From contig CANRBR010000006.1 of assembly GCA_947628915.1 (NCBI GenBank), positions 1 through 35,388 on the forward strand: a stretch of DNA of 35,388 nt, written 5' to 3'. The DNA is from an uncultured Bacilli bacterium (GTDB lineage Bacteria > Bacillota_I > Bacilli_A > RF39 > UBA660). Both the position numbers and the translations under genes were made by a program. Each line of letters starts with the position of its first letter. The first letter of the stretch is position 1. The notes beneath the pieces are model-generated. The model ran no database searches. It was not told where the DNA came from and worked only from the letters and a program-made list of their open reading frames with translations. Positions 4,635 to 25,542 of this stretch are shown piece after piece.

Positions 4635-4668
4635 TATTTTAGATTAGAAGAAGGTAGGTGAGGTTTTA

Positions 4669-4935: not shown

Positions 4936-4936
4936 T

Positions 4937-4957: not shown

Positions 4958-5020
4958 CTTTTTATTTATACATAATTATGATTTATAAATAAAAGTGGAT
5001 TATAATTTTGTTTTAACTCC

Positions 5021-5050
5021 TTGACAAATAACAGCATTAGTTGCTATAAT
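5021..5050 (+). promoter_or_regulatory. Consensus sigma70-type promoter for ORFs 5085-7054
   Basis: TTGACA (5021-5026), 18-nt spacer, TATAAT (5045-5050). Confidence 0.85.
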
Positions 5051-5084
5051 TATTGTAGTCTAAGATAATGCAAGGGAGAATTTT

Positions 5085-5540: not shown

Positions 5541-5548
5541 GTGAGTAT

Positions 5549-6043: not shown

Positions 6044-6058
6044 AAAGGGGAAATATAA

Positions 6059-7144: not shown

Positions 7145-7759
7145 ATGAAAAAGAGAAAAATATTGCTATTTATTGTATTTGCACTTATGCTTATTCCCTT
7201 TTTAAATGTAAAAGCATTTAGTTGTGAATATAAAAGGGAGTATAATAATCAAGATGTGACTTATAGAATTGACTTTGATAGTAATAATAAAATTACTGTA
7301 TATAATAACAACAGAATATTATTATCAAAAAAAACTTATTTTTCTTATCTTGATAATGTTAGTGAATGTCCTAAGGATGAGAACATTTATATAAAAGAGA
7401 CCGATGATACATTAGTAGTAAGATCTAGTGTTAGTTGTGGCAAAATAGAAGGTATACCTGGCAAGATACCTGAAATTACTAGTTTAATAGTAACTATAGT
7501 TCAAATAGCAGTTCCAGTTATATTAGTACTTATGGGTACATTAGATTTATTTAAAGGTATAACTGCTCAAAAAGAAGACGAAATTAAAAAAGGGCAACAA
7601 ATGTTTATCAAAAGACTTATAGTTGGAGCTATAATATTCTTTGTAATAGTTATAGTAAAAGTTTTGATTAGTATAGTTGCTGATTCAACTAATGACACTA
7701 ATAATATAACAGAATGTATAGATTGTTTCTTAAGTGGAACAGATAATTGTAGGAGGTAA
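7145..7759 (+). CDS. Signal-peptide protein: Cys-containing ectodomain plus VirB2-like two-TM module
   Basis: Preferred start ATG 7145 (GTGAGGTGAAT RBS) rather than TTG 7055 in the track. SLIVTIVQIAVPVILVLMGTLDLFKGITAQKEDEIKKGQQMFIKRLIVGAIIFFVIVIVKVLI aligns with the ORFs at 7763 and 9364. Confidence 0.75.
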   Translation: MKKRKILLFIVFALMLIPFLNVKAFSCEYKREYNNQDVTYRIDFDSNNKITVYNNNRILLSKKTYFSYLDNVSECPKDENIYIKETDDTLVVRSSVSCGKIEGIPGKIPEITSLIVTIVQIAVPVILVLMGTLDLFKGITAQKEDEIKKGQQMFIKRLIVGAIIFFVIVIVKVLISIVADSTNDTNNITECIDCFLSGTDNCRR

Positions 7760-7762
7760 TTT

Positions 7763-8176
7763 ATGAAAAAGAAAATATTTATGATGATGATTGTTATGGT
7801 TTTGATGGTAGCCATTATACCAAGTGTTTCAGCAGTAAATTTAAGAGGGTGTGAGGCAAACCTACCTGGTGTTGTAATAGATACAAAAATACCTAATACT
7901 ATACACACAGTAATTACTGTAATTAAAATAGCAGTTCCAGTATTACTTGTAATATTTGGTATGATAGATTTATTTAAAGGACTAACTGCTCAAAAGGAAG
8001 ATGAGATAAAAAAAGGACAACAGATGTTTATCAAAAGACTTATTTCTGCTGCAATAATATTCTTTGTAATATCTATTGTACAATTACTAGTTAGTTTTGT
8101 TGCAGGTGATGAAGGAATTATGACATGTGCAAATTGTTTCTTAAATGGTGCAGATAGTAGTGGTAATTGTAAATAG
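7763..8176 (+). CDS. VirB2/TrbC-like pilin protein
   Basis: Signal peptide, then TVITVIKIAVPVLLVIFGMIDLFKGLTAQKEDEIKKGQQMFIKRLISAAIIFFVISIVQLLV; two-TM VirB2 topology. Confidence 0.75.
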   Translation: MKKKIFMMMIVMVLMVAIIPSVSAVNLRGCEANLPGVVIDTKIPNTIHTVITVIKIAVPVLLVIFGMIDLFKGLTAQKEDEIKKGQQMFIKRLISAAIIFFVISIVQLLVSFVAGDEGIMTCANCFLNGADSSGNCK

Positions 8177-8185
8177 GAGGGTTAT

Positions 8186-9301
8186 ATGGTTGATGCCTTA
8201 AAAAAATTAGATAAAAAATTTTTGATAATTGCAGGATGTATAATAGGACTTCCAATTGTGCTTATAATATTTCTAGCTCTTATACAATCATGTGGTAGTA
8301 GTAAATTAACATATGAAAAATATGAAGATAAGATGATAAGTTCTGCAGAGAAATATTTTAAAGACAAAGATATGATACCAACTGAAGAAGCTCAATTATC
8401 TACTGTTAAACTATCTGAATTAGTAAGTGATGGTTATATAAAATCTACAGAAAGTTCTTTGGATGACGAGACATGTGATGGATTTGTAAATGTAAGAAGA
8501 AATGGTTCATCTAGAGAAATCAATAATGGGGGATACTTGAGTTATACTGTATCTTTAAACTGTAAAGATTATAATACTGTTCATTTAGTAGATAAAATCA
8601 AAGAAAATATTACTACGACAGAATCTGGGTTATATCAAGTTGGAGAAGATTTAATATTTAAAGGTGATAAAGTTAATAATTATGTTAATTTCTTTGGTAG
8701 TTTTTATAGAATTGTAAGTATAGATAAAAATAATGTAATAAAATTAGTAAAGTCTGAACCAGATATTGCATCTAGGGTTTGGGATAATAAATATAATTCA
8801 GATGTAGACCATTCATATGGAAAGAATATTTATAAAGATAGTATTATTTTGGAATATTTAATAAGTGATTATGAAAACAACAAGAAGGTAAGTAAAAAAG
8901 CAAGACCACATATAGTTGCTTATAATACTTGTATAGGTAAAAGAGATATGAATGATAATAGTATTAGTAAAGAAATAGATTGTAGCGAGGTCTTAGAAAA
9001 TCAATTAGTTTCACTATTAAATGTTTCTGATTTTGCTTTAGCGAGTTTAGATCCGGACTGTAATTCAACTATTTCAAGGTCTTGTAGAAATTATAATTAT
9101 TTATCTGATGTTGCTGTTTCTACATGGACGCCTAATTCTGTAAGTAATAATTCATATGAGGTATTTTATTTAGCCGACGGGTTATCTACTTATCAAAATG
9201 CGAATTCATATAACGAATATAATATGGTAATATATATTGACGGTAATGAATTATATACATCTGGAAGTGGAAGTTCTAGCAATCCATATGTTATTGAATA
9301 A
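8186..9301 (+). CDS. Membrane-anchored pilin/adhesin-like exported protein
   Basis: N-terminal TM; TVKLSELVSDGYIKSTES...CDGFVNVRRNG...YTVSLNCKDYNT segment typical of pilin-like proteins; C-terminus YTSGSGSSSNPYVIE. Confidence 0.55.
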   Translation: MVDALKKLDKKFLIIAGCIIGLPIVLIIFLALIQSCGSSKLTYEKYEDKMISSAEKYFKDKDMIPTEEAQLSTVKLSELVSDGYIKSTESSLDDETCDGFVNVRRNGSSREINNGGYLSYTVSLNCKDYNTVHLVDKIKENITTTESGLYQVGEDLIFKGDKVNNYVNFFGSFYRIVSIDKNNVIKLVKSEPDIASRVWDNKYNSDVDHSYGKNIYKDSIILEYLISDYENNKKVSKKARPHIVAYNTCIGKRDMNDNSISKEIDCSEVLENQLVSLLNVSDFALASLDPDCNSTISRSCRNYNYLSDVAVSTWTPNSVSNNSYEVFYLADGLSTYQNANSYNEYNMVIYIDGNELYTSGSGSSSNPYVIE

Positions 9302-9310
9302 AAAGATGTA

Positions 9311-9339
9311 TTGACTTTTATTAGGAAAATATATATAAT
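9311..9339 (+). promoter_or_regulatory. Near-consensus promoter for VirB2-like gene at 9364
   Basis: TTGACT (9311-9316), 17-nt spacer, TATAAT (9334-9339); AGGAGGAT RBS at 9351. Confidence 0.85.
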
Positions 9340-9363
9340 TAAATTAAGTTAGGAGGATAAAAA

Positions 9364-9741
9364 ATGATATTAGCAAAAGTTTTAATGAAACCAGAGTATA
9401 CTTGTGGAGGAACAAATCTTGTATTTTCAGGTAGTTTTCCATATATAATTTCAACTGTTGTTACTATAATTAAAATAGCAGTTCCGATTTTACTTATAAT
9501 ATTTGGAATGCTAGATTTAGGTAAAGCGGTAGTTGCATCTAAGGAAGATGAGATAAAAAAAGGTCAACAATTATTTATAAAAAGAGCTATATCAGCTGTA
9601 ATAGTATTCTTTGTAATACAAGTAGTTCAAATTATTGTTAGATTTGTATCTGGTAATGATGCAACAGTAGCAAACTGTTTTAATTGCTTTATAAATGGTG
9701 AAGCATCATCAAGTGCTTGTCAATTAGCAGATGCTGAATAA
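9364..9741 (+). CDS. VirB2/TrbC-like pilin protein
   Basis: TVVTIIKIAVPILLIIFGMLDLGKAVVASKEDEIKKGQQLFIKRAISAVIVFFVIQVVQIIV; conserved C-terminal CFNCFINGEASSSAC. Confidence 0.75.
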   Translation: MILAKVLMKPEYTCGGTNLVFSGSFPYIISTVVTIIKIAVPILLIIFGMLDLGKAVVASKEDEIKKGQQLFIKRAISAVIVFFVIQVVQIIVRFVSGNDATVANCFNCFINGEASSSACQLADAE

Positions 9742-9743
9742 TA

Positions 9744-9778
9744 AAAGCAAATAATTATTGATTATTTGCTTTTTTTTT
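9744..9778 (+). terminator. Rho-independent terminator
   Basis: AAAGCAAATAAT...ATTATTTGCTTT followed by 8+ T. Confidence 0.88.
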
Positions 9779-9786
9779 GCTATAAT
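9758..9786 (+). promoter_or_regulatory. Promoter embedded in the terminator, reading into the VirB6-like gene
   Basis: TTGATT (9758-9763) in the hairpin loop/3' arm, 17-nt spacer, TATAAT (9781-9786). Confidence 0.65.
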
Positions 9787-9830
9787 TGTGATATGAGTAT
9801 AAGTATCAAGAAAACAAGGAGGAGTAGAGA

Positions 9831-11915
9831 ATGTTTGTATTAGCTAATATGTGGTTTCAAACATTGATGAGACAATTTTTCTTTAATATAGATAAAATTG
9901 TTTTTGGGTTTATTTCAACACTATATGACCTTTTAATAACTATTGCTAGAACTTCTGTTCTTTCACAAGCTGATATAATGTCTATAGCTGATAGGATATA
10001 TAAATTATTAGCTGTTTTTATGGTGTTTAAAGTTACATTCTCTTTAATAATGTATGTAGTTAATCCTGATGATTTTTCAGATAAATCTAAGGGTGTAGGT
10101 AAACTTGGACTAAATATTGCTTTTTCATTAGCGATACTAGTTTTAACTCCTTATATATTTAATTATGCATATCAATTACAAACTATAGTACTTGAAGATA
10201 ATTCGCTTGCTAACTTAGTGTTTGGCAAAGATGATAGCAGTGCGAATACATTTGATACTGCGGGAAGTAAGATAGCTTATATGACTATGGAACCATTTTT
10301 TATGCCTGATATATCGTTGGATGAACTTTATGAATGCGCTCAACTTACAACTGGATTAGATGGTGAGAGTGGAAATTTGATATTCAACTCTGCTTGTTCT
10401 GGTATGGATTCAAATATGGCTTCAACAGATGATCCTGATTCTCTTTATGCGTTATTAAATAAAAAATTTACTGAACAGGATTTAAAAAATTATGTTGGTG
10501 GTGTTGAATTAAGCAATTTTGGTTTAATGTTTAGACAAGATTTAGCTGTAGCAACTGTTAATGATAATAAAGATTATGTAATAGATTATAAGTATCTATT
10601 TAGTACATTAGTAGGAATAGTCGTAGTTTTAGTATTAATAAGTTTCTGTATGGATGTTGCTATACGTAGTATTAAACTTGCATTTTTGCAATTAATAGCT
10701 CCTATACCAATTATTTCTTATGTAGACCCTAAGAGTGGTAAAGACGGATTATTTAAAAAATGGTATCAGATGTGCTTTAAAACTTATATAAGTATATTTG
10801 TTAGATTAATAGCTCTTTATTTTGCAGTGCATATAATAAGTAAAATAAATAATTTAGTAGATATAGTAGATGGCTCTTATGTAAGTAATTTATTTGTTAA
10901 AGTATTTATAATAATTGGAGCATTGATGTTTGCTAAGCAATTACCTAAAATACTTGAGGGATTGGGATTGAAACTTGATGGAGGATTTACACTTAATCCA
11001 CTTAAGAAAATTGAAAATGAGGCTTTAGGTGGAAAACAGATATCAAAAGCTGCAAAAGTACCATTTAAATATGCTGGAAGAGGAGCTAAAGGTTTAGCAA
11101 CTGCTGGATTAGTTGGAGGAGCTGCTTTAGTAACAGGTCAAGGTCTAAGAGGAATGGGCCATGCTTTAGGTGGTGCTATGAAGGGGGAAAAATTTGGAAA
11201 GAATTTTTCAGGTTCATATTCTGCTGCTAGAGCGAGAAAGAAACAAGTTCAACAAATGAAAAATGATGGAATTAGTCCATGGAATGTTAGAGGAGAAAAT
11301 ATTAAGAATGTTTTTAGAGGCTTGACTCCTAAAGACCAATTAGATGATTTAAATTCATCAATAAAAAGAGTCCAAGATAATTATAAATCTTATTATAATG
11401 GAGTTTTGGGCGCAGATAAACTTGCAAAAGAATTTGAACGTAGAAGATTAGCTGCAGAAAATGCTGGTGATGATGCTGGAATGAAATTGTGGCAAGATTC
11501 TATAGATGCCAGAGTTAAAGAAATAGAACAAAATGGTGGTCATATTATGCTTGGCGATGATGCTAATGTATCAGCATCTATTGCTAACAAAATTAAAAAT
11601 AATGGTGGAACATATTCTGGTAATTTGTCAAATGAAGCTCAAGCATCCAATGCTACTGCACAATTAAATAAAGCTTCCATAACAGAAAGTTCTGGTTTGC
11701 AGTCAATAAGGGAAAATACAACAGATGTTGTAAATTACATAAATCAAAACTATGATGGTAAGTTTGGATATAATGGTTCTCTTGATGCTAGTGCTGATAT
11801 GAAGAAAGTTAATGGTACTGCTAAAGGAGCAGAACTTGATGTATCTAATTCTAAAGATACAAAAAGAGTTACAGATATGTCAAAATATACAACTCAATCA
11901 AGTAAAAAAAGTTAA
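9831..11915 (+). CDS. VirB6/TrbL-like polytopic T4SS channel protein with long hydrophilic C-terminus
   Basis: 694 aa, multiple TMs in the first ~380 aa, Gly/Ala-rich segment, charged C-terminus; position before PrgI/VirB4. Confidence 0.7.
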   Translation: MFVLANMWFQTLMRQFFFNIDKIVFGFISTLYDLLITIARTSVLSQADIMSIADRIYKLLAVFMVFKVTFSLIMYVVNPDDFSDKSKGVGKLGLNIAFSLAILVLTPYIFNYAYQLQTIVLEDNSLANLVFGKDDSSANTFDTAGSKIAYMTMEPFFMPDISLDELYECAQLTTGLDGESGNLIFNSACSGMDSNMASTDDPDSLYALLNKKFTEQDLKNYVGGVELSNFGLMFRQDLAVATVNDNKDYVIDYKYLFSTLVGIVVVLVLISFCMDVAIRSIKLAFLQLIAPIPIISYVDPKSGKDGLFKKWYQMCFKTYISIFVRLIALYFAVHIISKINNLVDIVDGSYVSNLFVKVFIIIGALMFAKQLPKILEGLGLKLDGGFTLNPLKKIENEALGGKQISKAAKVPFKYAGRGAKGLATAGLVGGAALVTGQGLRGMGHALGGAMKGEKFGKNFSGSYSAARARKKQVQQMKNDGISPWNVRGENIKNVFRGLTPKDQLDDLNSSIKRVQDNYKSYYNGVLGADKLAKEFERRRLAAENAGDDAGMKLWQDSIDARVKEIEQNGGHIMLGDDANVSASIANKIKNNGGTYSGNLSNEAQASNATAQLNKASITESSGLQSIRENTTDVVNYINQNYDGKFGYNGSLDASADMKKVNGTAKGAELDVSNSKDTKRVTDMSKYTTQSSKKS

Positions 11916-11932
11916 AAAGGGTGTGATACTAA

Positions 11933-12253
11933 ATGAACAATTCATATTTAATACCTGCAAATTCAAAGAAAAGTTTGCTTAAGTTTGGTGCATTTAATAC
12001 AGTAGATTTAATAATATTTGGATGCGGTGTAGGATTATCATTCTTACTTATGATGATGCTACCTGTAGACAATTTTACTGTTGCGATACTTGCAATTACG
12101 CCAGGTTTAATATGTGCATTTCTGGTAATTCCAGTTCCTAATTATCACAATGTTAGAACGGTAATAATAAATGCATGGAACTTTTATACTACTAGGCAAA
12201 AATATATATGGAAGGGTTGGTGTTTTAAAGATGGCGAAACAGACAAAAAGTAA
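11933..12253 (+). CDS. PrgI-family (VirB3-like) T4SS membrane protein
   Basis: 106 aa, two TMs, PANSKKSLLKFGAFNTVDLIIFG...IPVPNYHNVRTVIINAWNFYTTRQKYIW; immediately upstream of VirB4. Confidence 0.7.
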   Translation: MNNSYLIPANSKKSLLKFGAFNTVDLIIFGCGVGLSFLLMMMLPVDNFTVAILAITPGLICAFLVIPVPNYHNVRTVIINAWNFYTTRQKYIWKGWCFKDGETDKK

Positions 12254-12770
12254 GTATACTGATGTTCCTGTAAAGGATATCGCTAATGGTGTTATAGTGT
12301 TAGATAACAATCAAAAGGTTACAGGTGTAAAAATTATGCCTAGAAATATTTTTATACTTGATCAAGCTATGCAAGATGCTATAATTACTAATTTAAAAAA
12401 TGTTTATAATGCTATAGACTATGAATTTTGGATTGTAGTTGCAGATAGACCAGTAGATATAAATGTCTACTTATCTAATTTACAATTACACTATAATCAA
12501 ATAACAGATACAAAGATAAGAAAATTAATTATGGAAGATATTAATAAAGCTAATATGTTTATGAATAATAATGTTGTTGATACCGAATACTTCTTATTGT
12601 TCAAGGAAAAAGATAATGATTTAATACAAAAGAGAATTCGTAATTTGATTAATAACTTTGCTAGTGCAGGACTTACTGCATTCCAAACTAATAATGACGA
12701 TTTAAGAATGATACTTGATAATTTCTTAAATGGTGGTCAAACTACTACATTTGGGACGGTGTTAGCATGA
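12231..12770 (+). CDS. VirB4 N-terminal domain protein (separate ORF)
   Basis: Preferred start ATG 12231 (MAKQTKSKYTDVPVKDIANGVIVLDNNQKVTGVKI) rather than 12171; homologous in layout to the N-terminal part of TraE/VirB4; stop overlaps next start as ATGA. Confidence 0.7.
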   Translation: MAKQTKSKYTDVPVKDIANGVIVLDNNQKVTGVKIMPRNIFILDQAMQDAIITNLKNVYNAIDYEFWIVVADRPVDINVYLSNLQLHYNQITDTKIRKLIMEDINKANMFMNNNVVDTEYFLLFKEKDNDLIQKRIRNLINNFASAGLTAFQTNNDDLRMILDNFLNGGQTTTFGTVLA

Positions 12771-14554
12771 TGGATATTAGAAGTCAAATTGCTCCTAAAG
12801 GGCTAGAGTTTAAATCAAATGAATTCGTTATTAGTGATAAATATGCATGTATTTTAACTATAATATCTTTTCCTAAATTTATATATCCAGGATACTTGAG
12901 TAGTTTAACTAGTATGTCTGGTATTAAAGTAGTAATTAAACATATTCCACTTCCATTTAGTAGTATAAGTAAAATGTTAAATAAAGAACTTGCAGATTTA
13001 AGACAAAGATATCAAGATGAAAAAGATAATACTATAAAAGAGAGAATTCGTCAGGATTATGAATCTCTGGAGATGTTTATAAGTGAACTTGCTGCAAGTC
13101 AATCTAAGATATATGATTTTCAAATGCATGTTATGATAACTGCAAATACACAGGAAGAGTTGGATGCTAAAAAAGTACAAGTTAAAAATTACTTAGAGGC
13201 TATGGAAATGAGAGCTATTCCTTTAAGATTTGAGCAAGATAAAGTACTTAAATCAATATTGCCAATATATGGTAAACAAGATATCGAAGATAGAATAGGT
13301 ACTCCGATACCATCTCCAACTATAGCTGCCATGTATCCTTTTATATTTGATAGTATAAAAGACCCTGGACTTTCTACTTTACTTGGAATTGATTTTTCAG
13401 GAGGAGTTATTCTATTCAATCAATTTTTGTATCAAATCAAAAAAGAACACAATCGTAATAATGCCAATATGATTATTTTAGGTACATCTGGAAGTGGTAA
13501 ATCTACTGCTGCTAAATTACTTTTAAGAAGTAATATTAGAAATAATAATCAGATAGTTGTAATCGACCCAGAGGGTGAACTTGAAGATATGACAAAGACA
13601 TTTGATGGAGATTTCATAAGTCTTGGTAAAGGTGGCTCATTTGGTATGATTAATCCTCTTGAGGTAATAATTGATGCTGATGAAGATGAAATGAAACAAG
13701 GCTTAGGTTATACTATATTAACTAGAACTTTACAAACTATTAAAGCATTTTTGAAATATTACGATCCTAGTATAGAGGAAGATGTAGTTAATATGTTTAG
13801 TGAAGTAGTACAAGAGACATATAAGAGATTTGGTATAGATTTTGAGGTCGATTTTACAAAATTTAAGTCTGAAGACTATCCAACATTTAAAGATGTATAT
13901 GCTACTATTAAAGGTAGAATATTATCTATGCCTGAAAAGACTCAAGAAAAGGATGTTTTAGAAAGACTAGAAATTAAAATAAGACCAATAGTTAATGAAC
14001 TTAAATATTATTTTGATGGTCATACAACTATTAAGCCTAGAAGCAATTTTATAGTATTTAATATAAAAGAACTTATGAATGCGGATGCTAACATAAGAAA
14101 TGCATTATTTTTCAATATATTAAAATATGCTTGGGGACTTACTTTAAATAGCCAAATTAATACAGTAATGATGGTAGATGAGGCTCATGTACTTCTTAGT
14201 GGTGGAAATACACTTGGAGCTGACTTCTTAGCGCAAATTCAAAGAAGAGCTCGTAAGTATAATACGGGTACTATAATAATCACACAACAACCAACTGACT
14301 TTAGTGACCCAAGTGTTATCACACAAGGTAAAGCTATATTTGATAATGCATCTTATTATTTAGTAATGGGGCTTAAAAAACAAGCGGTTGATGATTTATC
14401 AAAATTAATCGATTTAAATGATAACGAAAAAGAAAGTATAAAACAATACGGTCAAGGAGAAGCACTCTTTGTGTGCGGCTCTAGGCGTATGAGAATAAAT
14501 GTAATAGTATCAGATGAAGAATTAGATTCATTTGGTAGTGGTGGAGGACTATAG
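12767..14554 (+). CDS. virB4: VirB4-family T4SS ATPase (motor domain)
   Basis: Walker A LGTSGSGKSTAAK, IDPEGELEDM, Walker B MMVDEAHVLLSGG, TIIITQQPTDFSDP. Confidence 0.93.
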   Translation: MMDIRSQIAPKGLEFKSNEFVISDKYACILTIISFPKFIYPGYLSSLTSMSGIKVVIKHIPLPFSSISKMLNKELADLRQRYQDEKDNTIKERIRQDYESLEMFISELAASQSKIYDFQMHVMITANTQEELDAKKVQVKNYLEAMEMRAIPLRFEQDKVLKSILPIYGKQDIEDRIGTPIPSPTIAAMYPFIFDSIKDPGLSTLLGIDFSGGVILFNQFLYQIKKEHNRNNANMIILGTSGSGKSTAAKLLLRSNIRNNNQIVVIDPEGELEDMTKTFDGDFISLGKGGSFGMINPLEVIIDADEDEMKQGLGYTILTRTLQTIKAFLKYYDPSIEEDVVNMFSEVVQETYKRFGIDFEVDFTKFKSEDYPTFKDVYATIKGRILSMPEKTQEKDVLERLEIKIRPIVNELKYYFDGHTTIKPRSNFIVFNIKELMNADANIRNALFFNILKYAWGLTLNSQINTVMMVDEAHVLLSGGNTLGADFLAQIQRRARKYNTGTIIITQQPTDFSDPSVITQGKAIFDNASYYLVMGLKKQAVDDLSKLIDLNDNEKESIKQYGQGEALFVCGSRRMRINVIVSDEELDSFGSGGGL

Positions 14555-14571
14555 AAATAGGAGGCGTTTAA

Positions 14572-16527
14572 ATGAATAATAATGATATATTTTTAAGAAA
14601 TACAAAGTCTAATTTTGTAAAGAATTTAAATGCCTCTAATTCTAAAAATGAAGCTCAAAGATTACAAGAAAAAGTAAAAGCTTATAATAATAATGTTAGA
14701 AGTAGTAATTTGGCAAGTAATGTTAATAGTAATTCAAAAGATGCATCAGCAAAAAGTACTAACAGTACCACTGTTAGTAAAAATAGTGGTAATGGTCGTA
14801 TGACAAATGAACTTGCCTCTAAAGGTCTATCTGCATCAGGTGTTCCTAGACCTATTGCAGATGCAGCTGTTAATAGTAAAGCGGGACAGAAAGTTATAGA
14901 AAATGCTAAGAAAAAGAGTCCGGTGCTTAATGCTTTTGATAAATTAACTGGTGGAGGAAAAAAAGAAACTGAAGAACAGGCATCTGATGGTGGAGGTCAA
15001 AGTTTTAGGGTTTCCTTTAAGTTTATTAAAATTGCACTTATTGCTTCAGTACCTGTTTTTACTATGGTTATATTTATATGCTTATTTATGTCTGCATCTC
15101 AAATATATATTAAATCTATAGGACTTGGGAGTGCAGATTCTTTAAGTGATGATAAAGTAGAAGCAAAAATAAAGAAGAAACAAGATAAACAAGAGAATGG
15201 CGGTAATGATTTGAATGAAGAAATTCCTGATGAGAATGCTTATATTTCTTCTAAAGATGATTTATATGTTTTAAATTATAATAGTAATAATGCGTTTATG
15301 ATAAGTAAACTTTCTAGTTCTAATTTAGTACTTGCTAATTCAACAAAATATTTAACCAGAAAATATAATGAAGCTGATTTAGAGCAATTAGAAGATTTTT
15401 TCCCTAATGTTAGTAGTTTGAGTGAAAAATATGAAGAGAACTTAGTATACGATTTCTTCTTTAAAATGTATAATATATTTGTTTATTATAGAGATACTAA
15501 GCCTTATAATGTAGAACTCGATTTACCACTTTTAATGGCAACACTATCTATTCAAACTGATGATATGAATGAATTATTCCGTTCAAATTTAAGTGATGAT
15601 GATAGGAAAGTTACTGGTTGGGTAAAACCTGTTTCAGATTATGATTATTATAAAGATTGGAGTAATCAAAAACTAAGTCCAACAGATAGTACACACGATA
15701 TGGAAATACTTGCTCAACACATGGTATCTAAACAAGTCAAAGAGACTTGTAAAAATTCAAGTGGTGAGGAGACAAAATCAAACATATTAAAAGATAGTCA
15801 GATTGGGACTCAAACCTTAACATGTGCGGAAGGTGAAACATATGAGACATCAGAAGAATATTTTGATGTAGATTATGATAAATACGATGAATTTTTAAAA
15901 GAATTTATAGAAAAGAAATATTATATAAATGATTCTACAATTGAACCTAATGAAGGTGAAAACAGTGGAGATGAAAGTGATGAAGGTGAAGATACTCCTG
16001 AAACTGTAATACCACAAACAACTGGTTCTTGGAGAAATTGGAAACAATGTGGAGGGACTTGGAGTAAAACAATAGTTCCTAAAAGTAATTCTACTATGTG
16101 TAGTATAGGTTGTTTAGTTACATCTGTTACAATTCAAATCGCACGTAGTGGGACTTTAACAGTGGTATCTCCTATTGATCCTGGTGTCGCACTAAATAAA
16201 TTTTCATTTGCTAGTGGAGGTAATTTCGTATGGGGAAGTACTACTAATTTAGCTCCAAATTTTAGATATGTAACATCTGTAAATTTGGCTGGAATGAATA
16301 AGGCTAGTATTGCTAAAAAGTTAGCTAGTTATGACCCTACAAAATACTATATTGTTTTATCAGTATCAAAGAAAAGTTTAAATAGTGCTCACCACTATGT
16401 GGCTCTTGAATACGTAGATTTAAATACTAATGAACTTTATATGATAGATCCTGGGGCTAGCAATGATCCTAAATTATATTCATCTTATAAAGTTTATAAA
16501 GCCCGTATTTTTGAAAAGAAGGATTAA
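14572..16527 (+). CDS. Membrane-anchored T4SS-associated protein with C-terminal C39-like cysteine peptidase domain
   Basis: Ser/Asn-rich cytoplasmic N-terminus, TM near residues 150-175, C-terminal STMCSIGCLVTSVTIQIARSG (Cys) and AHHYVALEYVD (His) motifs. Confidence 0.65.
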   Translation: MNNNDIFLRNTKSNFVKNLNASNSKNEAQRLQEKVKAYNNNVRSSNLASNVNSNSKDASAKSTNSTTVSKNSGNGRMTNELASKGLSASGVPRPIADAAVNSKAGQKVIENAKKKSPVLNAFDKLTGGGKKETEEQASDGGGQSFRVSFKFIKIALIASVPVFTMVIFICLFMSASQIYIKSIGLGSADSLSDDKVEAKIKKKQDKQENGGNDLNEEIPDENAYISSKDDLYVLNYNSNNAFMISKLSSSNLVLANSTKYLTRKYNEADLEQLEDFFPNVSSLSEKYEENLVYDFFFKMYNIFVYYRDTKPYNVELDLPLLMATLSIQTDDMNELFRSNLSDDDRKVTGWVKPVSDYDYYKDWSNQKLSPTDSTHDMEILAQHMVSKQVKETCKNSSGEETKSNILKDSQIGTQTLTCAEGETYETSEEYFDVDYDKYDEFLKEFIEKKYYINDSTIEPNEGENSGDESDEGEDTPETVIPQTTGSWRNWKQCGGTWSKTIVPKSNSTMCSIGCLVTSVTIQIARSGTLTVVSPIDPGVALNKFSFASGGNFVWGSTTNLAPNFRYVTSVNLAGMNKASIAKKLASYDPTKYYIVLSVSKKSLNSAHHYVALEYVDLNTNELYMIDPGASNDPKLYSSYKVYKARIFEKKD

Positions 16528-16529
16528 AT

Positions 16530-17177: not shown

Positions 17178-17194
17178 ATTTTGGAGGTGAAATA

Positions 17195-18628
17195 ATGTTA
17201 AAAAAATACTTAATATATTTTATGTGTTTTATAGCGCTATTTTACCTTAATTTCAATTTTATTAGTGCATATGAATATATAGACCCTAACAATGAAGATT
17301 CAGTTATGGATAAATTTAATGAGATATATGATGCAAAAGAACAGTACGAAGATTTAGTAGGAGATTATGAAGAAACTGAGATTATCAATGTTTCTAATTC
17401 TGCTTATTGGTGGCCTGTTGGAAGTGAAGAAACTACTGAAAAAAATGGTAAATTATTTGCAATAGGCACTCCAATCTCCGTTAATGTTACTTCTGGATTT
17501 GGCGGTAGACTAGACCCTTTTGGAACTAATGCCAATGTAAATCACTTCGGTATAGATATCGGAAATGCTGGTCATGGTGCGGGAGAGGTTAATATAATCG
17601 CTGCTCGTTCTGGAGAAGTAATTTATCCATTAGATTCTTCACAAACTTCTTATAATGATAATGGAACTAGAACTGATGGTGGAGGTTTTGGGAATCATGT
17701 AAAGATAAAACACAGTGATGGAAGTATTACTCTATATGCTCATATGGCTAAAGACAGTATAACTGTTAAGGCAGGAGATGTAGTAGAACAAGGACAAGTT
17801 ATAGGTAAAATGGGTCATAGTGGTGACTCAACAGCGGTACATCTTCATTTTGAGATTAGACTTGGTGCGGACTCTAGTAAGAGTAGTGTTAACCCTTTAG
17901 ATTATGTAGATCCAAGTAACCCTAGACCTACTTCTAGCGGTGGAGGAAGTGACTTTTCACTAGTTTCTACAATACTTTCTAAAGAAGAATTTGTAGCTAA
18001 AATGAATGATTATTGTACTAGGTCTGGAAAAAAAGGTTTTTGCAATAATTTTGCTAAAAACGCAGAGGAGATATATGATGTATCTATAGATAGTGGAGTA
18101 AATCCAGAGTTAGTTGTAGTAACTGCTGGAGCGGAGCAAAACTGGACTTTGAGTTCTGCTTGTAGTTATACAAATAATTACTGGGGAATAGGAATTGGCA
18201 ACGGTAAAGGATGTAATTCTGGAGGAAAATATAAATCTCTTGCAGAAGGTATAGTTGCTTATTCCCAAGTTTTATCTGATTATAATGTTGGTGGTAAAAG
18301 AGAACAGACTATAACTAATAGATATAACGAAAGAGAAAGTGCAGGATGTAATGCATCTGGACATGGGCTTCCAGGTACTTTATCTGGAATGCAATCTCTA
18401 TACTCTTGGATAGGTAATTATAGATTTAATCCAGGTAACTATGGTTTAGGAGGCTGTGTGTATTTAAATATTATGTATGGAGATAATTATTGTTCTACTA
18501 AGCCAACTTGTACAGATTATAATAACTGTCCTGCAGGTTCAGAAACTACGGTCTGTGAACAAAACGATTATACTGCTTGGCAAATAGATAAAAAATTACA
18601 AATAAGATATGATATATTTGGTTTATAG
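17195..18628 (+). CDS. Bifunctional peptidoglycan hydrolase: M23/LytM endopeptidase plus glucosaminidase/lysozyme-like domain
   Basis: M23 motifs NHFGIDIG and HLHFEI; GGRLDPF, GEVIYP, YAHM; C-terminal NPELVVVTAGAEQNWTLSSACSYTNNYWGIGIGNGKG. Confidence 0.85.
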   Translation: MLKKYLIYFMCFIALFYLNFNFISAYEYIDPNNEDSVMDKFNEIYDAKEQYEDLVGDYEETEIINVSNSAYWWPVGSEETTEKNGKLFAIGTPISVNVTSGFGGRLDPFGTNANVNHFGIDIGNAGHGAGEVNIIAARSGEVIYPLDSSQTSYNDNGTRTDGGGFGNHVKIKHSDGSITLYAHMAKDSITVKAGDVVEQGQVIGKMGHSGDSTAVHLHFEIRLGADSSKSSVNPLDYVDPSNPRPTSSGGGSDFSLVSTILSKEEFVAKMNDYCTRSGKKGFCNNFAKNAEEIYDVSIDSGVNPELVVVTAGAEQNWTLSSACSYTNNYWGIGIGNGKGCNSGGKYKSLAEGIVAYSQVLSDYNVGGKREQTITNRYNERESAGCNASGHGLPGTLSGMQSLYSWIGNYRFNPGNYGLGGCVYLNIMYGDNYCSTKPTCTDYNNCPAGSETTVCEQNDYTAWQIDKKLQIRYDIFGL

Positions 18629-18633
18629 GTGAT

Positions 18634-19140
18634 ATGATGAATAAAAATGAAAAAACTCAAGTTATTGTTACAGTAGTATTGGTAGCGGCAGCTTTAATTT
18701 TAATAATATATAGTACTTTCTTTAATAAAAAAGAAGTTAGTGAAAAAATAGATACTGAGACTATATCTATTGTCAATGATAACAGTAAATTTTTTACAGT
18801 ATCATCATGTGTATCAAAATATTTAAATTATTTGTCAATTAGAGATACTGATAATTTATTAATTTTACTTAGTAACGATTATAAAACAAAAAATAGTGTA
18901 GATAAATCTAATATTTATTCTTTTGTCGGTAGTGTGCAAGGTAATCCAGAATTTTCTCCTAGAAAGATGTTTGTTCAAAGGATGTCTAAGAATGTTTATA
19001 AATATTATGTTTACGGAACAATAACTCAAGATGTTATAAACACATTAGGAGAAAGTATAGATTACTATTTAATAGTAATACTTGATGAAGAAAATATGAC
19101 ATTTGCAATAGAACCATATAATGGAGAAATGTTTAAATAG
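18634..19140 (+). CDS. Single-TM protein of VirB8/TcpC-like topology
   Basis: N-terminal TM then ~130 aa soluble domain; position between wall hydrolase and coupling protein. Confidence 0.45.
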   Translation: MMNKNEKTQVIVTVVLVAAALILIIYSTFFNKKEVSEKIDTETISIVNDNSKFFTVSSCVSKYLNYLSIRDTDNLLILLSNDYKTKNSVDKSNIYSFVGSVQGNPEFSPRKMFVQRMSKNVYKYYVYGTITQDVINTLGESIDYYLIVILDEENMTFAIEPYNGEMFK

Positions 19141-19149
19141 GAGGTAATT

Positions 19150-19644
19150 ATGCAAAAACTTTTAAAAAATAAGTTATTAATTGCTTTAATATGTTTATTC
19201 GTTTTTGTGGTAGCATTTTATCTTTTAAGAGAATATTTTGCGAGTAAAGAAAAATATACTGAATCTTATTTGAGAGATGAAGAGTATTATATGGTTCCAA
19301 AAACATATGGAGTTAATGAATATTCTGTTACTAAAATATCTGACCAAGATATGAGTAGGATATATTTAAACGATTATATTTATAATATAAATCAAAATAT
19401 AGAGTTTGCTTATAACTTATTAAATGAAGAATATAGAAACAAAAAATTTGGTAATTTAGAAAGTTTTAGAAATTATATAAATTCTACTAAATATTCTAAT
19501 ACATTAACTAAATATTCTAAGAGTTCTAAATTAGGAAAAACTATATATGGGGCATACGATAATTATGGTAACCATTATATATTTAAAACAAGTGGTGTTA
19601 TGCAATACGAAGTATATTTAGATGATTATACAGTAGAAATATAG
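19150..19644 (+). CDS. Single-TM protein of VirB8-like topology, possibly related to preceding ORF
   Basis: N-terminal TM LIALICLFVFVVAFYLL then ~135 aa soluble domain; AGGAGG RBS; same size class and position. Confidence 0.4.
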   Translation: MQKLLKNKLLIALICLFVFVVAFYLLREYFASKEKYTESYLRDEEYYMVPKTYGVNEYSVTKISDQDMSRIYLNDYIYNINQNIEFAYNLLNEEYRNKKFGNLESFRNYINSTKYSNTLTKYSKSSKLGKTIYGAYDNYGNHYIFKTSGVMQYEVYLDDYTVEI

Positions 19645-19652
19645 GTGATAAA

Positions 19653-21701
19653 ATGAGATTAAGATTTAGAGCAGAGGCTAAAGATGTAATTATATTTTGT
19701 ATATTTGCATTTGTTTGGCTATTAGTTGTAGCTTTAGCTGTTGCGAATGTTTCTGCGTTTTTAAATGGTGAATCTTTTACAATTAATTTATTTAAAGGAT
19801 TTATTCCTAAGAATTTAGCTGCAACTATTGTATTCTTTTTAGCTGGAATTATTGCTGCTTTTGCAGGAGTAAAATCTGTCTTTATTGAAAAAGAAGATGA
19901 TACAACTGGAATTGGGCTAGCTATAGGGCAGAAAAAAGAAAAAAATTATTCTAGATGGGCAAAAGATAAAGAAATAGAAAAAGGTTTGGATGTTAAAGCT
20001 GTCGACCCTCTTGCTCCTAAAGCAGATGCAGCTGGTATACCACTTAAAATGACTCCTAAAAAAGTATGGGTAGATAATGGTGGATATCACAATATAGTTA
20101 TAGGTTCTACTGGTGCTGGTAAAACTCAAACTACAGTTCTTCCAATGGTTAATTTACTTGCAAAGCACGATGAATCTATGATTATAACAGACCCTAAAGG
20201 TGAAATTTATGAAAATACTGCAAACTATTTAAAAAGTTTAGGGTATAATATAGTGCTTTTAAACTTCCGTGACCCACAACAGGGTAATGCTTGGAATCCT
20301 ATGTATTTACCTTATTCACTGTATCAAAGCGATAATATAGATAAATCTATAGAATTACTAGAGGACTTAGCTGCAAATATATTGCACGACCCAACAGCTA
20401 AAGGACAAGACCCTTTCTGGGAGAATACTTCTGCGGATTATTTTGCAGGACTTGTATGTGCGCTTTTTGAAGATGCAAGTCCAGATGAAATAAATTTAAA
20501 CAGTATTAGTTTAATGACTACAGTAGGTGAAGAAAAACTCGCTAATACTACTTATATTAAAGATTACTTTAGTTATAAAGACCCTGGAAGTACTGCATAT
20601 ACAAAAGCATCTTCAACTTTAATGGCACCTTCTGAAACTAAGGGAAGTATATTATCAGTATTTAAACAAAAAATACAGTTATTCGCATCGCGTGCTAATC
20701 TATCTGAGATGCTTTCTAATAACGATTTCGATATGCGTGATATAGGTAGAAAAAAGACAGCAGTATTTATAGTAATACAGGATGAAAAGACTACATATCA
20801 CTCTCTTGTAACAATATTTTTGAAACAGTGTTATGAAACACTTATATCAGTCGCTCAAGAGTCTGGAGGAAAACTTCCTCATAGAACTAATTTTATACTA
20901 GATGAGTTTGCTAATATGCCACCTTTAAAAGATGTTACAACTATGGTAACTGCAGCTCGTTCAAGAAATATTAGATTTACTTTCATTATTCAAAACTTCG
21001 CACAACTTTATGAAGTTTACGGAAAAGAAAATGGAGAGACAATAAAAGGTAACTGTGGTAATATCGTATATTTGATAAGTACTGAACTTTCCGCACTCGA
21101 AGAGATAAGTAAGATGTGTGGTGAGGTTAAATCAAAAGAAAAAGAAAAGACCTCTTCAACTCCACTTGTTACAGTTAGTGACTTACAGAGATTATCGCAG
21201 TGGGAGACAATTATACTAAGACTTAGAACTATGCCTTTTAAAACTAAATTAACACCTAATTTTCAAATGAATTGGGGTCATAGTTTTCCTAAGGCTGAGT
21301 ATCCTCATAGAGAAAAAATACCAGTAAAAACATTTGATTTAAAATCTTTTGTAAATAAAAAAAGAGAAGATAAAATTAATAATATGCTTAACAACGATTC
21401 TTCACCTTCTAGTATACCTACTCCTTTTGGAGGAGCTCCATTTAATCCATTTATGGGACAAAACGATCCTAAACCTTCTAACGATGGTGGATTTAATGTA
21501 GATGATTTAGTTAAGAGAATAGATGCTAAAATAGCAGAACTAGAAGAAGAAGAAAGAAAAGAGCAAGAAAAGGCTAAATTAGAAAGTCAGAACACAATTA
21601 TTAATCAAGTAAATGAAACAGATGTTAAACAAGAAGTAGAAAATAATAAAAATGGAATAACTGATGATCAATTCTTTGATGACTTCTTTAGTGATGAATA
21701 A
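19653..21701 (+). CDS. virD4: VirD4/TraG-family T4SS coupling ATPase
   Basis: N-terminal TM pair, Walker A IGSTGAGKTQTTVLP, ITDPKGEIYE, FILDEFANMPPLKDVTTMVTAARSRNIRFTFIIQNFAQL. Confidence 0.95.
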   Translation: MRLRFRAEAKDVIIFCIFAFVWLLVVALAVANVSAFLNGESFTINLFKGFIPKNLAATIVFFLAGIIAAFAGVKSVFIEKEDDTTGIGLAIGQKKEKNYSRWAKDKEIEKGLDVKAVDPLAPKADAAGIPLKMTPKKVWVDNGGYHNIVIGSTGAGKTQTTVLPMVNLLAKHDESMIITDPKGEIYENTANYLKSLGYNIVLLNFRDPQQGNAWNPMYLPYSLYQSDNIDKSIELLEDLAANILHDPTAKGQDPFWENTSADYFAGLVCALFEDASPDEINLNSISLMTTVGEEKLANTTYIKDYFSYKDPGSTAYTKASSTLMAPSETKGSILSVFKQKIQLFASRANLSEMLSNNDFDMRDIGRKKTAVFIVIQDEKTTYHSLVTIFLKQCYETLISVAQESGGKLPHRTNFILDEFANMPPLKDVTTMVTAARSRNIRFTFIIQNFAQLYEVYGKENGETIKGNCGNIVYLISTELSALEEISKMCGEVKSKEKEKTSSTPLVTVSDLQRLSQWETIILRLRTMPFKTKLTPNFQMNWGHSFPKAEYPHREKIPVKTFDLKSFVNKKREDKINNMLNNDSSPSSIPTPFGGAPFNPFMGQNDPKPSNDGGFNVDDLVKRIDAKIAELEEEERKEQEKAKLESQNTIINQVNETDVKQEVENNKNGITDDQFFDDFFSDE

Positions 21702-21717
21702 ACTTTTATCCTTTATA

Positions 21718-21756
21718 ATAACCACTTATACTCATATAATGTAGTAGGGTGGTTAT
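21718..21756 (+). repeat. 8-bp inverted repeat overlapping the rhodanese RBS
   Basis: ATAACCAC (21718-21725) and GTGGTTAT (21749-21756); AGGGTGG RBS is in the 3' arm; a TATAAT lies at 21735-21740 in the loop. Confidence 0.5.
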
Positions 21757-21758
21757 TT

Positions 21759-22046
21759 ATGTTTGAAAGTATTTCTGTAATTGATTTAAAAAAATTAAAT
21801 TATATTAATTTAATCGACATAAGAAGTATAGAAAGATATAACAATAAACACATCATGAATGCTATAAATATTCCTATGGAACAATTACTTATAAGACCAG
21901 AAAAATATTTAAGTAAAGGAGAAAAATACTATATATATTGTGAGAAAGGCATACAGAGTAGAAAACTCTGCCAAATATTAGCAAACAACGGTTATAGTGT
22001 TGTAAATGTATCTGGAGGTTACGAGGCTTGGGTAATAAATGAATAA
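21759..22046 (+). CDS. Single-domain rhodanese
   Basis: DIRSIERYNNKHIMNAINIPMEQL...YYIYCEKGIQSRKLCQILANNGYSVVNVSGGYEAW; active-site CEKGIQSR. Confidence 0.9.
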   Translation: MFESISVIDLKKLNYINLIDIRSIERYNNKHIMNAINIPMEQLLIRPEKYLSKGEKYYIYCEKGIQSRKLCQILANNGYSVVNVSGGYEAWVINE

Positions 22047-22073
22047 GATATTAATTAAACTTATTCATTTTTT
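22039..22073 (+). terminator. Rho-independent terminator overlapping rhodanese stop
   Basis: ATGAATAAG...CTTATTCAT followed by T run; extended -10 TGGTATAAT follows at 22083-22091. Confidence 0.75.
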
Positions 22074-22106
22074 GTTTAAGTATGGTATAATTAATATGGT
22101 GATAGT

Positions 22107-23171
22107 ATGGAATACATAATACTTTGTTTATTAATAATAATTTTAGTGATGTTAATGATTATTTTGTTAAAGAAAGATGATAAGTCAGATGAGAAAATAA
22201 ACAAATTAGAAGTAAATATGATAAAAGAAATTGGAGATTTTAAAAACGATTTTACTCGTAGTTTAACTAATGACTTTAATAATCAAACCGAAAAATTAGA
22301 TAATAGACTTAGATATATAAACGATAAAGTTAATGAAAGATTAGATGAAAATTTTGAAAGGACTAATAAAACATTTAATAATGTTTTAGAAAGATTATCA
22401 AAAATAGATGAGGCTCAGAAGAAAATCGATACGCTATCAGGTGATATTGTATCACTTCAAGGAGTATTGACAGATAAAAAAACAAGAGGAATATTTGGAG
22501 AAGTTAATTTGGAGCACATCCTATCTAATGTATTTGGAAAAAACAATACTAAAATATTTGAATTACAATATACATTTAATAATGGTACTGTTGCAGATGC
22601 TGTTCTTTTTACACCCGAACCACTTGGAACAATTGCAATAGACTCTAAATTCCCTTTAGAACACTTTCAAATAATGGTTGATAAGAATAATAGTAATGAG
22701 ATTAGAAATCAAGCAGAAAAGATGTTTAAACAGGATATGAAGAAACATATAGATGATATAAGTAGTAAATATATAATACCTGGAGTTACAAGTGACCAAG
22801 CCGTGTTATTCTTACCTGCAGAAGCTATTTTTGCAGAGGTTAATGCATACCACACTGATATACTAGAATATGCTTATAAGAAAAGAGTTTGGATAACAAG
22901 TCCTACAACTTTGATAAGTACACTTACTACTATACAGATAATCATTAAAAATATAGAAAGAGATAAATATGCTAAAGTAATTCAAAATGAGTTAAGACTT
23001 TTGGATGATGAGTTTAAAAGATATAAAGATAGATGGGATAAACTATATAGAAGTATTGAAACAGTTAGTCGTGATGTTAAAGATATACATACGACTACTG
23101 AAAAGATTACAAAAAGATTTGATAGTATAAATCAAGTGGAGATGAAAGAAATAGATGATAAAAAAGATTAA
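22107..23171 (+). CDS. rmuC: RmuC family DNA recombination protein
   Basis: N-terminal TM, coiled coil, LTDKKTRGIFGEVNLEHIL...IDSKFPLEHF...SDQAVLFLPAEAIFAEV...VWITSPTTLISTLTTI. Confidence 0.93.
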   Translation: MEYIILCLLIIILVMLMIILLKKDDKSDEKINKLEVNMIKEIGDFKNDFTRSLTNDFNNQTEKLDNRLRYINDKVNERLDENFERTNKTFNNVLERLSKIDEAQKKIDTLSGDIVSLQGVLTDKKTRGIFGEVNLEHILSNVFGKNNTKIFELQYTFNNGTVADAVLFTPEPLGTIAIDSKFPLEHFQIMVDKNNSNEIRNQAEKMFKQDMKKHIDDISSKYIIPGVTSDQAVLFLPAEAIFAEVNAYHTDILEYAYKKRVWITSPTTLISTLTTIQIIIKNIERDKYAKVIQNELRLLDDEFKRYKDRWDKLYRSIETVSRDVKDIHTTTEKITKRFDSINQVEMKEIDDKKD

Positions 23172-23742
23172 TTTTTTACTTATATTGGTATCTATAATAA
23201 TTAGTTTTTACTTTGTTTTTACACGAGATAATAATCCTGCTCTTATTTTAAAAGATGCTTCAATTATTATTACAATAACTGGTATTTATATTATAGAAAA
23301 AATATTTAAAGTACATATAAATGATGGAATAAAATGTTGTTATATTGTATTTGTGTTTGTAGCTCATTTCTTAGGGGCAACATGTGAATTATATAATAAA
23401 ATATATTGGTTTGATAAATTTTCTCATTTTGTATCTGGTATACTTACTTCGTTTGGAGCGATATATATATTAGTTAAAAATAAAAGTAATAAATTGTTAT
23501 TTAATATATTATTTATTATATCTTTTTCTTTAGGCATTGCTGCTCTTTGGGAAATATTTGAATACTTAGCTAGTTATTATTTCAATATGGATCCACAAAA
23601 AGTTATTTTAACAGGAGTTACTGATACTATGGGTGATATAATAGTTGCATTTTTAGGTTCAATACTTGTATCTATATGTTATTACTTTGAACACACATCT
23701 AACCATAATATATTTATAAAAAAATTTGAAAAACTTATATAA
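23155..23742 (+). CDS. YjdF/DUF2238-like polytopic membrane protein
   Basis: VAHFLGATCELYNKIYWFDKFSHFVSGILTSFGAIY...GIAALWEIFEYLASYY...TGVTDTMGDIIVAFLGSIL; overlaps rmuC by 17 nt. Confidence 0.75.
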   Translation: MIKKINFLLILVSIIISFYFVFTRDNNPALILKDASIIITITGIYIIEKIFKVHINDGIKCCYIVFVFVAHFLGATCELYNKIYWFDKFSHFVSGILTSFGAIYILVKNKSNKLLFNILFIISFSLGIAALWEIFEYLASYYFNMDPQKVILTGVTDTMGDIIVAFLGSILVSICYYFEHTSNHNIFIKKFEKLI

Positions 23743-23777
23743 ATAAAGTAAAAATATTTACTTTATTTATTTTTTTA
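23741..23777 (+). terminator. Rho-independent terminator with embedded promoter
   Basis: AAATAAAGTAAA-AATA-TTTACTTTATTT + T run; TTTACT (23757-23762), 17-nt spacer, TATAAT (23780-23785). Confidence 0.75.
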
Positions 23778-23803
23778 TGTATAATTAAGTTAGGAGTGAT
23801 TAT

Positions 23804-24313
23804 ATGAACGAAGGTGCAAAAAAAAGTTTTTTTAATAAGAAAAACATATTAATAATAGGAGTAATTGTAGTTGCATTATTAATAGTTCTTTGTTTCTTAC
23901 TTTTTGGAGGAGGTAAGGAAAAAGTTTTAAAATGTACAATGTCAATAAATAATGATCAATACGCAAGTGTTGATATAAGTATAAATGCATATTATAAAAA
24001 AAAGGTTAATAGACTTGATGGAAAAATCACATATGAAATTTTAGATGAAACTTTAAAGGGAAATGCCAATGACTTAGAAAATAGGCTAAAAAATTATTAT
24101 GAACAAACTGTTAAAGGTGATGCAATAAAAATATCTATATCTAGAAATAATTTTAATATTGTAATAGATTATAGCATTGATTATGATAAAATGACAGAAG
24201 ATGAATTAGACTCTTTGGGGTTATTCGAACTTCCTAAAAATAATGAAAAACAAACAATTGAAGATTTAAAATCAGAAATAATTAAATCAGGTGGCACATG
24301 TGTAGAGGAGTAA
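23804..24313 (+). CDS. Small single-TM extracytoplasmic protein
   Basis: N-terminal TM IGVIVVALLIVLCFLLFGGG; AGGAGTG RBS; YehR/DUF1307-like architecture is only a guess. Confidence 0.5.
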   Translation: MNEGAKKSFFNKKNILIIGVIVVALLIVLCFLLFGGGKEKVLKCTMSINNDQYASVDISINAYYKKKVNRLDGKITYEILDETLKGNANDLENRLKNYYEQTVKGDAIKISISRNNFNIVIDYSIDYDKMTEDELDSLGLFELPKNNEKQTIEDLKSEIIKSGGTCVEE

Positions 24314-24318
24314 AGTTT

Positions 24319-25542
24319 ATGAAAAAAATAATTTTTATAATACTAGGGTTAGTTTCTTTAGTTTCACTAAATATTGAAAGTATAAATGCTGTTACTTCTG
24401 TATGCGAGTATGATTTTGATACTAGTAATCCAGGAAATGAATTGATTGTAACTTTTGATGATGCAGGAACGGCAAGTATAAATCAGGATTTTTATCCAAA
24501 ACTAAGAATTCCAAATATTTTAAATGCCCTTGTAAATGTTAATTCTGGGCAAATAAAATCAACTGAAACTTTAGATTTTCAGGTTAAAGAATTGTTTGGA
24601 ACTTGTCCAGAGAATTTATATGTTTGTCAGTATTCTGAAACATCAAGTGAATCGGGAATTTTGAATTTGTTTTCTGATGAACACGGAATAGCTAATATTT
24701 TAAATTTTGTATATATAAAATATAGCGAAAACGAAATGAATGAAGTGTCTAATTTAAAGGACTTACCAAATCAAGAAACAGTATGGGGTAGCGAATTTAT
24801 TGATGCGTGGAATTGGGCATATAAAGGTTGTTCTAATTATAACATTCCTGTATTAAAACAACTTACAGGAGGGTTATGCGGTATAGGATGGGATCTTGTA
24901 ACGTATTTCAAAGGCATTTATTCTACGGAGAATGTATATATTAAATACAAGGATTGTAGAAATGCTGCATATACTGGAGATGGGCCAACTTACAACTTAG
25001 CTTGTCCTAACTTAAATGTATACTTAGGTAGATTTCAAAATGCAATAAAAGAGTATAGTTCAGATAGTTGTATAAATGATGCTTCTTGTAAATCGAGAAA
25101 AATAAGTGAAGTTAATGAACAAGAGAATATGATTAGAAATTATTGTAATACTATAATGTCAAGTCATAATTTTGATAATGGTAATGAGGAGGATTGTCTA
25201 AAGGCATGTATTGATATAAATATACAACTTAGAAAAGCAAAAGAACAGGCTGGAATATTAAAAAGCGGTTCTGGTGATTGTGGATTTTCAGGCAGATTGC
25301 TCGTATGGCTTAACAATATAATGAGATGGATAAAATATATATTGCCAGTTATAGTAATATTACTTGGAATAGTAGATTTTATAAAAGCTATTGCAGCTGA
25401 TAAAGATGATGAAATGAAAAAGGCACAAGGAAGATTTGTAAAAAGATTAATTTCAGCAGCTATTGTCTTCTTAGTACCACTCTTAATAGAATTTATATTA
25501 AATATTATGGGATTTAAATATGACTCATGTAGTCTATTCTAA
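24319..25542 (+). CDS. Exported ectodomain protein with C-terminal VirB2-like two-TM module
   Basis: Preferred ATG 24319 (AGAGGAG RBS, MKKIIFIILGLVSLVSLNIESINA signal peptide). C-terminus IKYILPVIVILLGIVDFIKAIAADKDDEMKKAQGRFVKRLISAAIVFLVPLLIEFIL matches the module in ORFs 7145/7763/9364. Confidence 0.7.
   Translation: MKKIIFIILGLVSLVSLNIESINAVTSVCEYDFDTSNPGNELIVTFDDAGTASINQDFYPKLRIPNILNALVNVNSGQIKSTETLDFQVKELFGTCPENLYVCQYSETSSESGILNLFSDEHGIANILNFVYIKYSENEMNEVSNLKDLPNQETVWGSEFIDAWNWAYKGCSNYNIPVLKQLTGGLCGIGWDLVTYFKGIYSTENVYIKYKDCRNAAYTGDGPTYNLACPNLNVYLGRFQNAIKEYSSDSCINDASCKSRKISEVNEQENMIRNYCNTIMSSHNFDNGNEEDCLKACIDINIQLRKAKEQAGILKSGSGDCGFSGRLLVWLNNIMRWIKYILPVIVILLGIVDFIKAIAADKDDEMKKAQGRFVKRLISAAIVFLVPLLIEFILNIMGFKYDSCSLF

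Follow-up and report, generated by a model that had tools for sequence, protein, structure and literature searches.

Hairpin proteins at a joined Tad and type IV secretion locus

The window analysed here is a stretch of 35,388 nucleotides that forms one entire contig (C6) of a 1.06-Mb genome (G000; 90 contigs, ~90% complete) from an uncultured Bacilli bacterium of the order RF39. On its + strand, a chromosomal Tad cluster is joined to a type IV secretion system (T4SS; virB6-prgI-split virB4-M23-virD4), and four paralogous membrane proteins, P1 to P4, which are our subject, are encoded among these genes. In order, it carries the Tad-like cluster, P1, P2, orfX, P3, virB6, prgI and split virB4, and continues with a C39-like membrane protein, a lipoprotein, an M23 hydrolase, two small open reading frames (ORFs) labelled VirB8-like by position alone, and virD4. 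Beyond virD4 lie a rhodanese gene, rmuC, P4 and then the housekeeping genes rnr and smpB.

The four ORFs were confirmed on the + strand where an earlier note, made by a model from the letters of the window, had placed four paralogues. P1 (7145-7759; a 5' TTG start at 7055 is possible) combines a signal peptide, a ~75-aa Cys-delimited ectodomain and a C-terminal hairpin module with a C-terminal CxxCF motif, while P2 (7763-8176) consists of a signal peptide and the module, with no ectodomain. P3 (9364-9741), directly 5' of virB6, is the shortest and most conserved, and P4 (24319-25542; an ATG at 24298 is possible) carries a ~320-aa hypervariable ectodomain followed by the module. The unit common to all four is a first transmembrane helix (TM1), a K/E-rich tip that is probably cytoplasmic, and a second helix (TM2). 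Leave-one-out profiles recovered P1, P2, P3 and P4 with E values of 1.6e-36, 4.8e-39, 1.4e-33 and 1.4e-18, against at least 0.0037 for shuffled sequences (200 per paralogue, best values only 0.0037-0.46); at the level of sequence, the similarity is not due to chance. The loop signature had been called invariant, which holds for the TM-tip-TM unit and for a set of identical columns (P, G, D, K, A, K, DE, KK, Q, F, KR, I, I, F, V and a C-terminal C) but not for its 'IAVP' start, found in three of the four and replaced by YILP in P4.

No further ORF of the window matched the module profile at E<1e-3. The scan for more copies that the earlier note had proposed did reveal a fifth in the genome, so that the family had been understated: P5 (334 aa; G000:C2:2203-3207, - strand; leave-one-out E 1.9e-29) is unlinked to T4SS genes and neighbours PduL-like and U32-peptidase genes. 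The general layout is a signal peptide (seen by eye in P1, P2, P4 and P5), an optional ectodomain, a Cys just before TM1, the charged tip ('D..K....K.DE.KK.Q..F.KR') and TM2, with a C-terminal CxxCF...C in P1, P2, P3 and P5.

The T4SS genes begin with a VirB6/TrbL-like channel protein (9831-11915; PF19597, 35 bits, and the mycoplasma integrative and conjugative element (ICE) families NF045889 and NF045848). It is followed by a PrgI/VirB3-like protein (11933-12253), weak by itself and assigned from PF12666 (13.3 bits) plus position, and by VirB4 (12171-14554; NF045975, 351.9 bits), encoded as two overlapping ORFs (12171-12770 and 12767-14554); this split is kept in relatives with an intact region, and also on the plasmid CP074574.1 discussed below. 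The membrane protein at 14572-16527 has the appearance of a C39-like peptidase by eye and is supported by synteny, a Pfam search giving no match. Further on lie an M23 and glucosaminidase-like cell-wall hydrolase with a VirB1-like role (17195-18628; PF01551, 74.3 bits) and the VirD4 coupling ATPase (19653-21701; PF02534, 193.6 bits). No relaxase was found among the scanned window ORFs and PF03432 is absent genome-wide, other relaxase families not having been searched genome-wide; this argues against a conjugative role, although other relaxases may be present. ComEC is present in most relatives, as in many bacteria, and the machine as a whole might conceivably serve in DNA uptake.

The Tad-like cluster (910-7054) comprises ORFs starting at 910 (cpaB/SAF), 1747 (tadA), 2879 (tadB), 3781 (tadC), 4669 (small pilin-like), 5085 and 5549 (both tadE-like) and 6059 (tadZ-like). 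TadA matches PF00437 (93 bits) and an NCBIfam TadA/VirB11 model; because single-protein matches are weak, the other labels rest on gene order and conservation. On the 5' side of cpaB (3-257 and 478-894), a truncated extracellular protein rich in Cys is accompanied by a TadE-like ORF; relatives have larger proteins of up to ~1500 aa there. OrfX (8186-9301) is a single-TM extracellular protein of unknown family, with 14 orthologues and no match in Pfam; it keeps its place between P2 and P3 in the mapped genus members and in several other genera as well.

Conservation of the module and its association with virB4

We surveyed 117 genomes sampled evenly from the order, and at the class level 18 genomes of the bacterium's own family and 131 other Bacilli. 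The module was present in 107/117 order genomes, in 1-16 copies each (one genome, G044, has 16, with four in tandem), and in 17 of the 18 family genomes, against none of the 131 others. Within the genus, gene order is the same in all assemblies long enough, and a module tree resolves six essentially one-to-one orthologue groups, P0 to P5, with P4 doubled in three genomes. SH-aLRT support is 99 for P3, 97 for P4, 97 for P5, 86 for P2 and 93 for P0 and P1 together, the weaker values for P2 and P0/P1 being due to the shortness of the module. P0 lies just 5' of P1 in most genus members and is missing from the window genome.

Profiles for virB4 and tadA were run on the same 117 genomes. Module and chromosomal virB4 were both present in 98 and both absent in 9, with 9 genomes having only the module and 1 only virB4 (107/117 in agreement; Fisher p 5e-8, uncorrected for kinship). 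Homologues lacking T4SS linkage, which by the earlier note would refute a pilin family, occur locally, as P5 and many long copies, while at the genome level the module tracks virB4. In three module-only genomes (G048, G080 and G124), no more than ~240 bases separate the module from a contig end, and the absent virB4 may therefore be a gap. A module directly precedes virB6 in all 59 loci, and in 52 public-genome loci with both tadZ and virB6, one to six modules stand between the two, as do three in the window, where orfX interrupts them and P3-virB6-prgI-virB4 are adjacent. Only recognised genes of the same strand were considered for these placements, and the figures are biased because loci were fetched by the module, which affects those for tadZ above all.

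The only Pfam family to be matched repeatedly is PF18895 (T4SS_pilin): no other membrane family comes up as frequently in relatives, of which 24/46 short, 41/115 N-extended and 6/31 C-extended proteins match it. P4 scores 30.4 bits, over the curated cut-off of 26.6. Two other PF18895 matches in the same genome, on C18 (FtsW/RodA-like) and C22 (DUF4190-like), were dismissed by eye as false. For P3, AlphaFold2 predicts a hairpin of two helices (24-58 and 61-95; mean pLDDT 82); its model of P4 (mean pLDDT 54) is poor except for a membrane-proximal helical bundle and the hairpin.

We read P1-P4 and the unlinked P5 as a differentiated family of VirB2-like (T4SS_pilin) subunits that belongs to an order-wide chromosomal T4SS physically joined to a Tad-pilus locus, and give this reading a probability of roughly 0.6. 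Homology, conservation, synteny, co-occurrence with virB4 and ectodomain divergence were observed; that the subunits polymerise, mix in one filament and recognise a partner is inferred. The earlier note had likewise seen an expanded, T4SS-linked VirB2-like family, which PF18895, the linkage and the differentiation support in part, but no solved pilin was matched by fold or sequence. Several results weigh against the reading. P3 (23.7 bits), P2 (18.3) and P1 (10.1) fall under the PF18895 cut-off, though leave-one-out profiles make them homologous to P4, and for P1-P4 there was no match to PF04956 (TrbC/VirB2) at E<=1. Foldseek returned only unrelated hairpins from the PDB (best E 2.6; short hairpins give low power), and a profile sequence search of the PDB matched no solved pilin. 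P3 has no signal peptide. Location also speaks partly against the reading: P5 and many long copies in relatives lie away from T4SS genes; where Tad and T4SS are apart (G019, G022 and G044), a short module gene stands beside each tadZ; and three genomes in which virB4 went undetected (G095, G131 and G147) retain long, mostly enzyme-fused copies.

Variable ectodomains, enzyme fusions and alternative readings

Among genus orthologues, P4 modules are 71% identical and P4 ectodomains 26%, which is no improvement on shuffled sequence at 23%; for P5 the values are 62%, 32% and 22%. Ectodomains of P0 and P1 are gained or lost between close relatives, and P3 never carries one in the genus. A single recurring Cys-delimited ectodomain common to P1, P4 and P5, suspected by eye, was abandoned when an iterated profile gave only 2 distinct proteins. 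Other genera have proteins with the module at the N terminus and enzyme domains after it: among 31 such C-extended proteins, C39 in 5, CHAP in 4, NlpC/P60, VanY and GDSL in 2 each, and Amidase_3, S11, M23, YkuD, GH99 and esterases in 1 each. In G044 (L204, L205, L206, L248-L252), the hairpin is joined to peptidoglycan hydrolases and to SGNH hydrolase, L,D-transpeptidase-like and GH99-like domains. The joined Tad locus, the order-wide conservation and these hypervariable and enzymatic fusions go beyond what the earlier note described.

Such fusions invite the reading that the hairpin is a general membrane anchor that displays adhesins and wall enzymes, with only P3, if any, a pilin. The range of fused domains would suit an anchor, as would the location of most enzyme fusions away from the T4SS locus, the scatter of long copies outside T4SS loci (most of the 16 in G044) and the persistence of enzyme-fused copies without detected virB4, these being what remains in G131 and G147 and one of the two copies in G095. 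From this persistence, some module members may not be pilins, and the hairpin may also act as a plain anchor. However, a Cys precedes TM1 in 357/369 module proteins and follows TM2 in 368/369, fusions included; several orthologue groups are maintained in parallel; one to six copies stand in tight synteny before virB6; and a plain anchor would have no need to co-occur with virB4. We consider the anchor reading unlikely, although it is the strongest competitor of the VirB2-like reading.

A second possibility, that the module proteins belong to the Tad pilus, as subunits or accessories, and not to the T4SS, is already weakened. Wherever tadZ and the module occur together, one module gene comes after tadZ (65/65, in loci fetched by the module), and the module stays with Tad in the three split loci. 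But ten genomes have virB4 without tadA, among them both species sampled from genera g42, g60 and g64. Nine of the ten carry the module, directly 5' of virB6 in all seven mapped that reach that point; in the tenth, G094, the contig begins at virB6. Conversely, the Tad loci of G128 and G141 have no module, and G128 (3 contigs) also lacks virB4 of this type. Because Tad-less genera keep the module before virB6 (L189-L196) and G128, with Tad but no virB4, has none, the module follows the T4SS. In addition, a separate ICE-like T4SS of the same genome (G000:C1:46000-56999, L009), which also carries an M23 gene, has a single PF18895-like protein 5' of virB6-prgI-virB4, with no Tad genes seen there. 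We thus regard a Tad role as very improbable. Least credible of all is that these are small channels or holin-like proteins with no part in secretion, as the two-TM hairpin and isolated weak matches to MscL, DUF621 and 7tm might suggest, since those matches are scattered and low whereas PF18895 alone recurs widely, the module's position and co-occurrence tie it to virB6 and virB4, and no relative turned up among viral contigs or plasmids within the sensitivity of the search.

Elsewhere in the window, three - strand ORFs at 31176-34879 resemble the spore-germination genes GerA, GerB and GerC by eye, and a RelB/RelE-like pair (30472-31057) adjoins them.

A possible composite machine and its relation to known systems

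Under the VirB2-like reading, each subunit would be a helical hairpin in the membrane, with its Cys-bearing ends outside and its K/E/R-rich tip in the cytoplasm, where the positive-inside rule places it. P3 is the likely core subunit because of its position (always beside virB6 in the genus), its conservation and its short form without additions; P0-P2 would be co-subunits, and P4 and P5 minor ones whose fast-evolving ectodomains are exposed on the cell surface. Extraction of the hairpins, and their assembly into a surface filament or collar on which the ectodomains may recognise a partner cell, would fall to VirB4 and VirB6. More speculatively, gut Bacilli of this order might build a composite Tad-T4SS machine, a heteromeric filament or collar in which the core pilin stays constant while pilin-fused cartridges (variable recognition domains or wall-cutting enzymes) can be exchanged, that attaches to and exploits neighbouring bacteria, in parallel with epibiotic Patescibacteria; we hold this extended proposal as tentative and on balance doubtful. 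One study of RF39-type lineages (PMC10868615) notes that their peptidoglycan synthesis is incomplete and that they may have to scavenge muropeptides; in the passages searched, neither it nor a second paper on such lineages (PMC7301438) mentions the present system.

If the VirB2-like reading is true, an order of Bacilli would be the second monoderm lineage with VirB2-like T4SS subunits, its pilin modules moreover being fitted with swappable domains. The family would allow constant and variable pilin parts to be told apart, and it offers a concrete hypothesis for T4SS function in the uncultured gut Bacilli of the order.

Compared with classical VirB2/TraA pilins, the window proteins share the predicted two-helix hairpin, the charged and probably cytoplasmic tip and a gene beside virB6/virB3/virB4, and differ by the lack of a PF04956 or structural match, by extra Cys and by their ectodomains. 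The helices and tip of classical pilins are also shorter than those of the window module. The earlier note called VirB2 usually single copy, which fits classical systems but not the arrays known from Patescibacteria, Bartonella and Anaplasma (PMC12102498). In the latter two, several VirB2 paralogues (TrwL/VirB2) serve one T4SS (PMC12102498, PMC3406051), as we propose here; those are diderm host-interaction systems, whereas here it is the appended ectodomains that vary and the module that is conserved.

The closest plasmid VirB4 (28.8% identity) is encoded on the 98-kb CP074574.1 (L256, L257) of a deep-sea Mycoplasmatota bacterium. Directly 5' of its virB6, prgI and split virB4 are genes for a short protein (112 aa) and an ectodomain-fused one (791 aa, its hairpin at the C terminus). 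PF18895 is the best Pfam match of each, below cut-off, and cpaB/tadZ/tadA/tadB/tadC-like genes lie downstream of the T4SS set. Tad, T4SS and pilin-like proteins with ectodomains thus also occur linked outside the order, although the locus is plasmid-borne, only two pilin-like genes were seen and the hairpins lie under detection by the window family's own profile.

According to a 2025 review, Gram-positive T4SSs lack VirB2, Patescibacteria being the one exception (PMC12857230). For single-membrane bacteria, sets of related, secretion pilin-like subunits had been described earlier only in epibiotic Patescibacteria. These bacteria have VirB2 arrays (441 arrays, 2-11 genes) in a monoderm, relaxase-poor T4SS, and in the one case tested, the array was essential to epibiont growth (PMC12102498). 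Of the known systems, this one comes nearest to that described here. Both have arrays of VirB2-like pilins, with three modules in the window cluster and one to six in relatives; the system reported here differs in belonging to an order of Bacilli, in joining Tad to the T4SS and perhaps in the hypervariable ectodomains of its modules, together with the wall enzymes that are fused to them in relatives.

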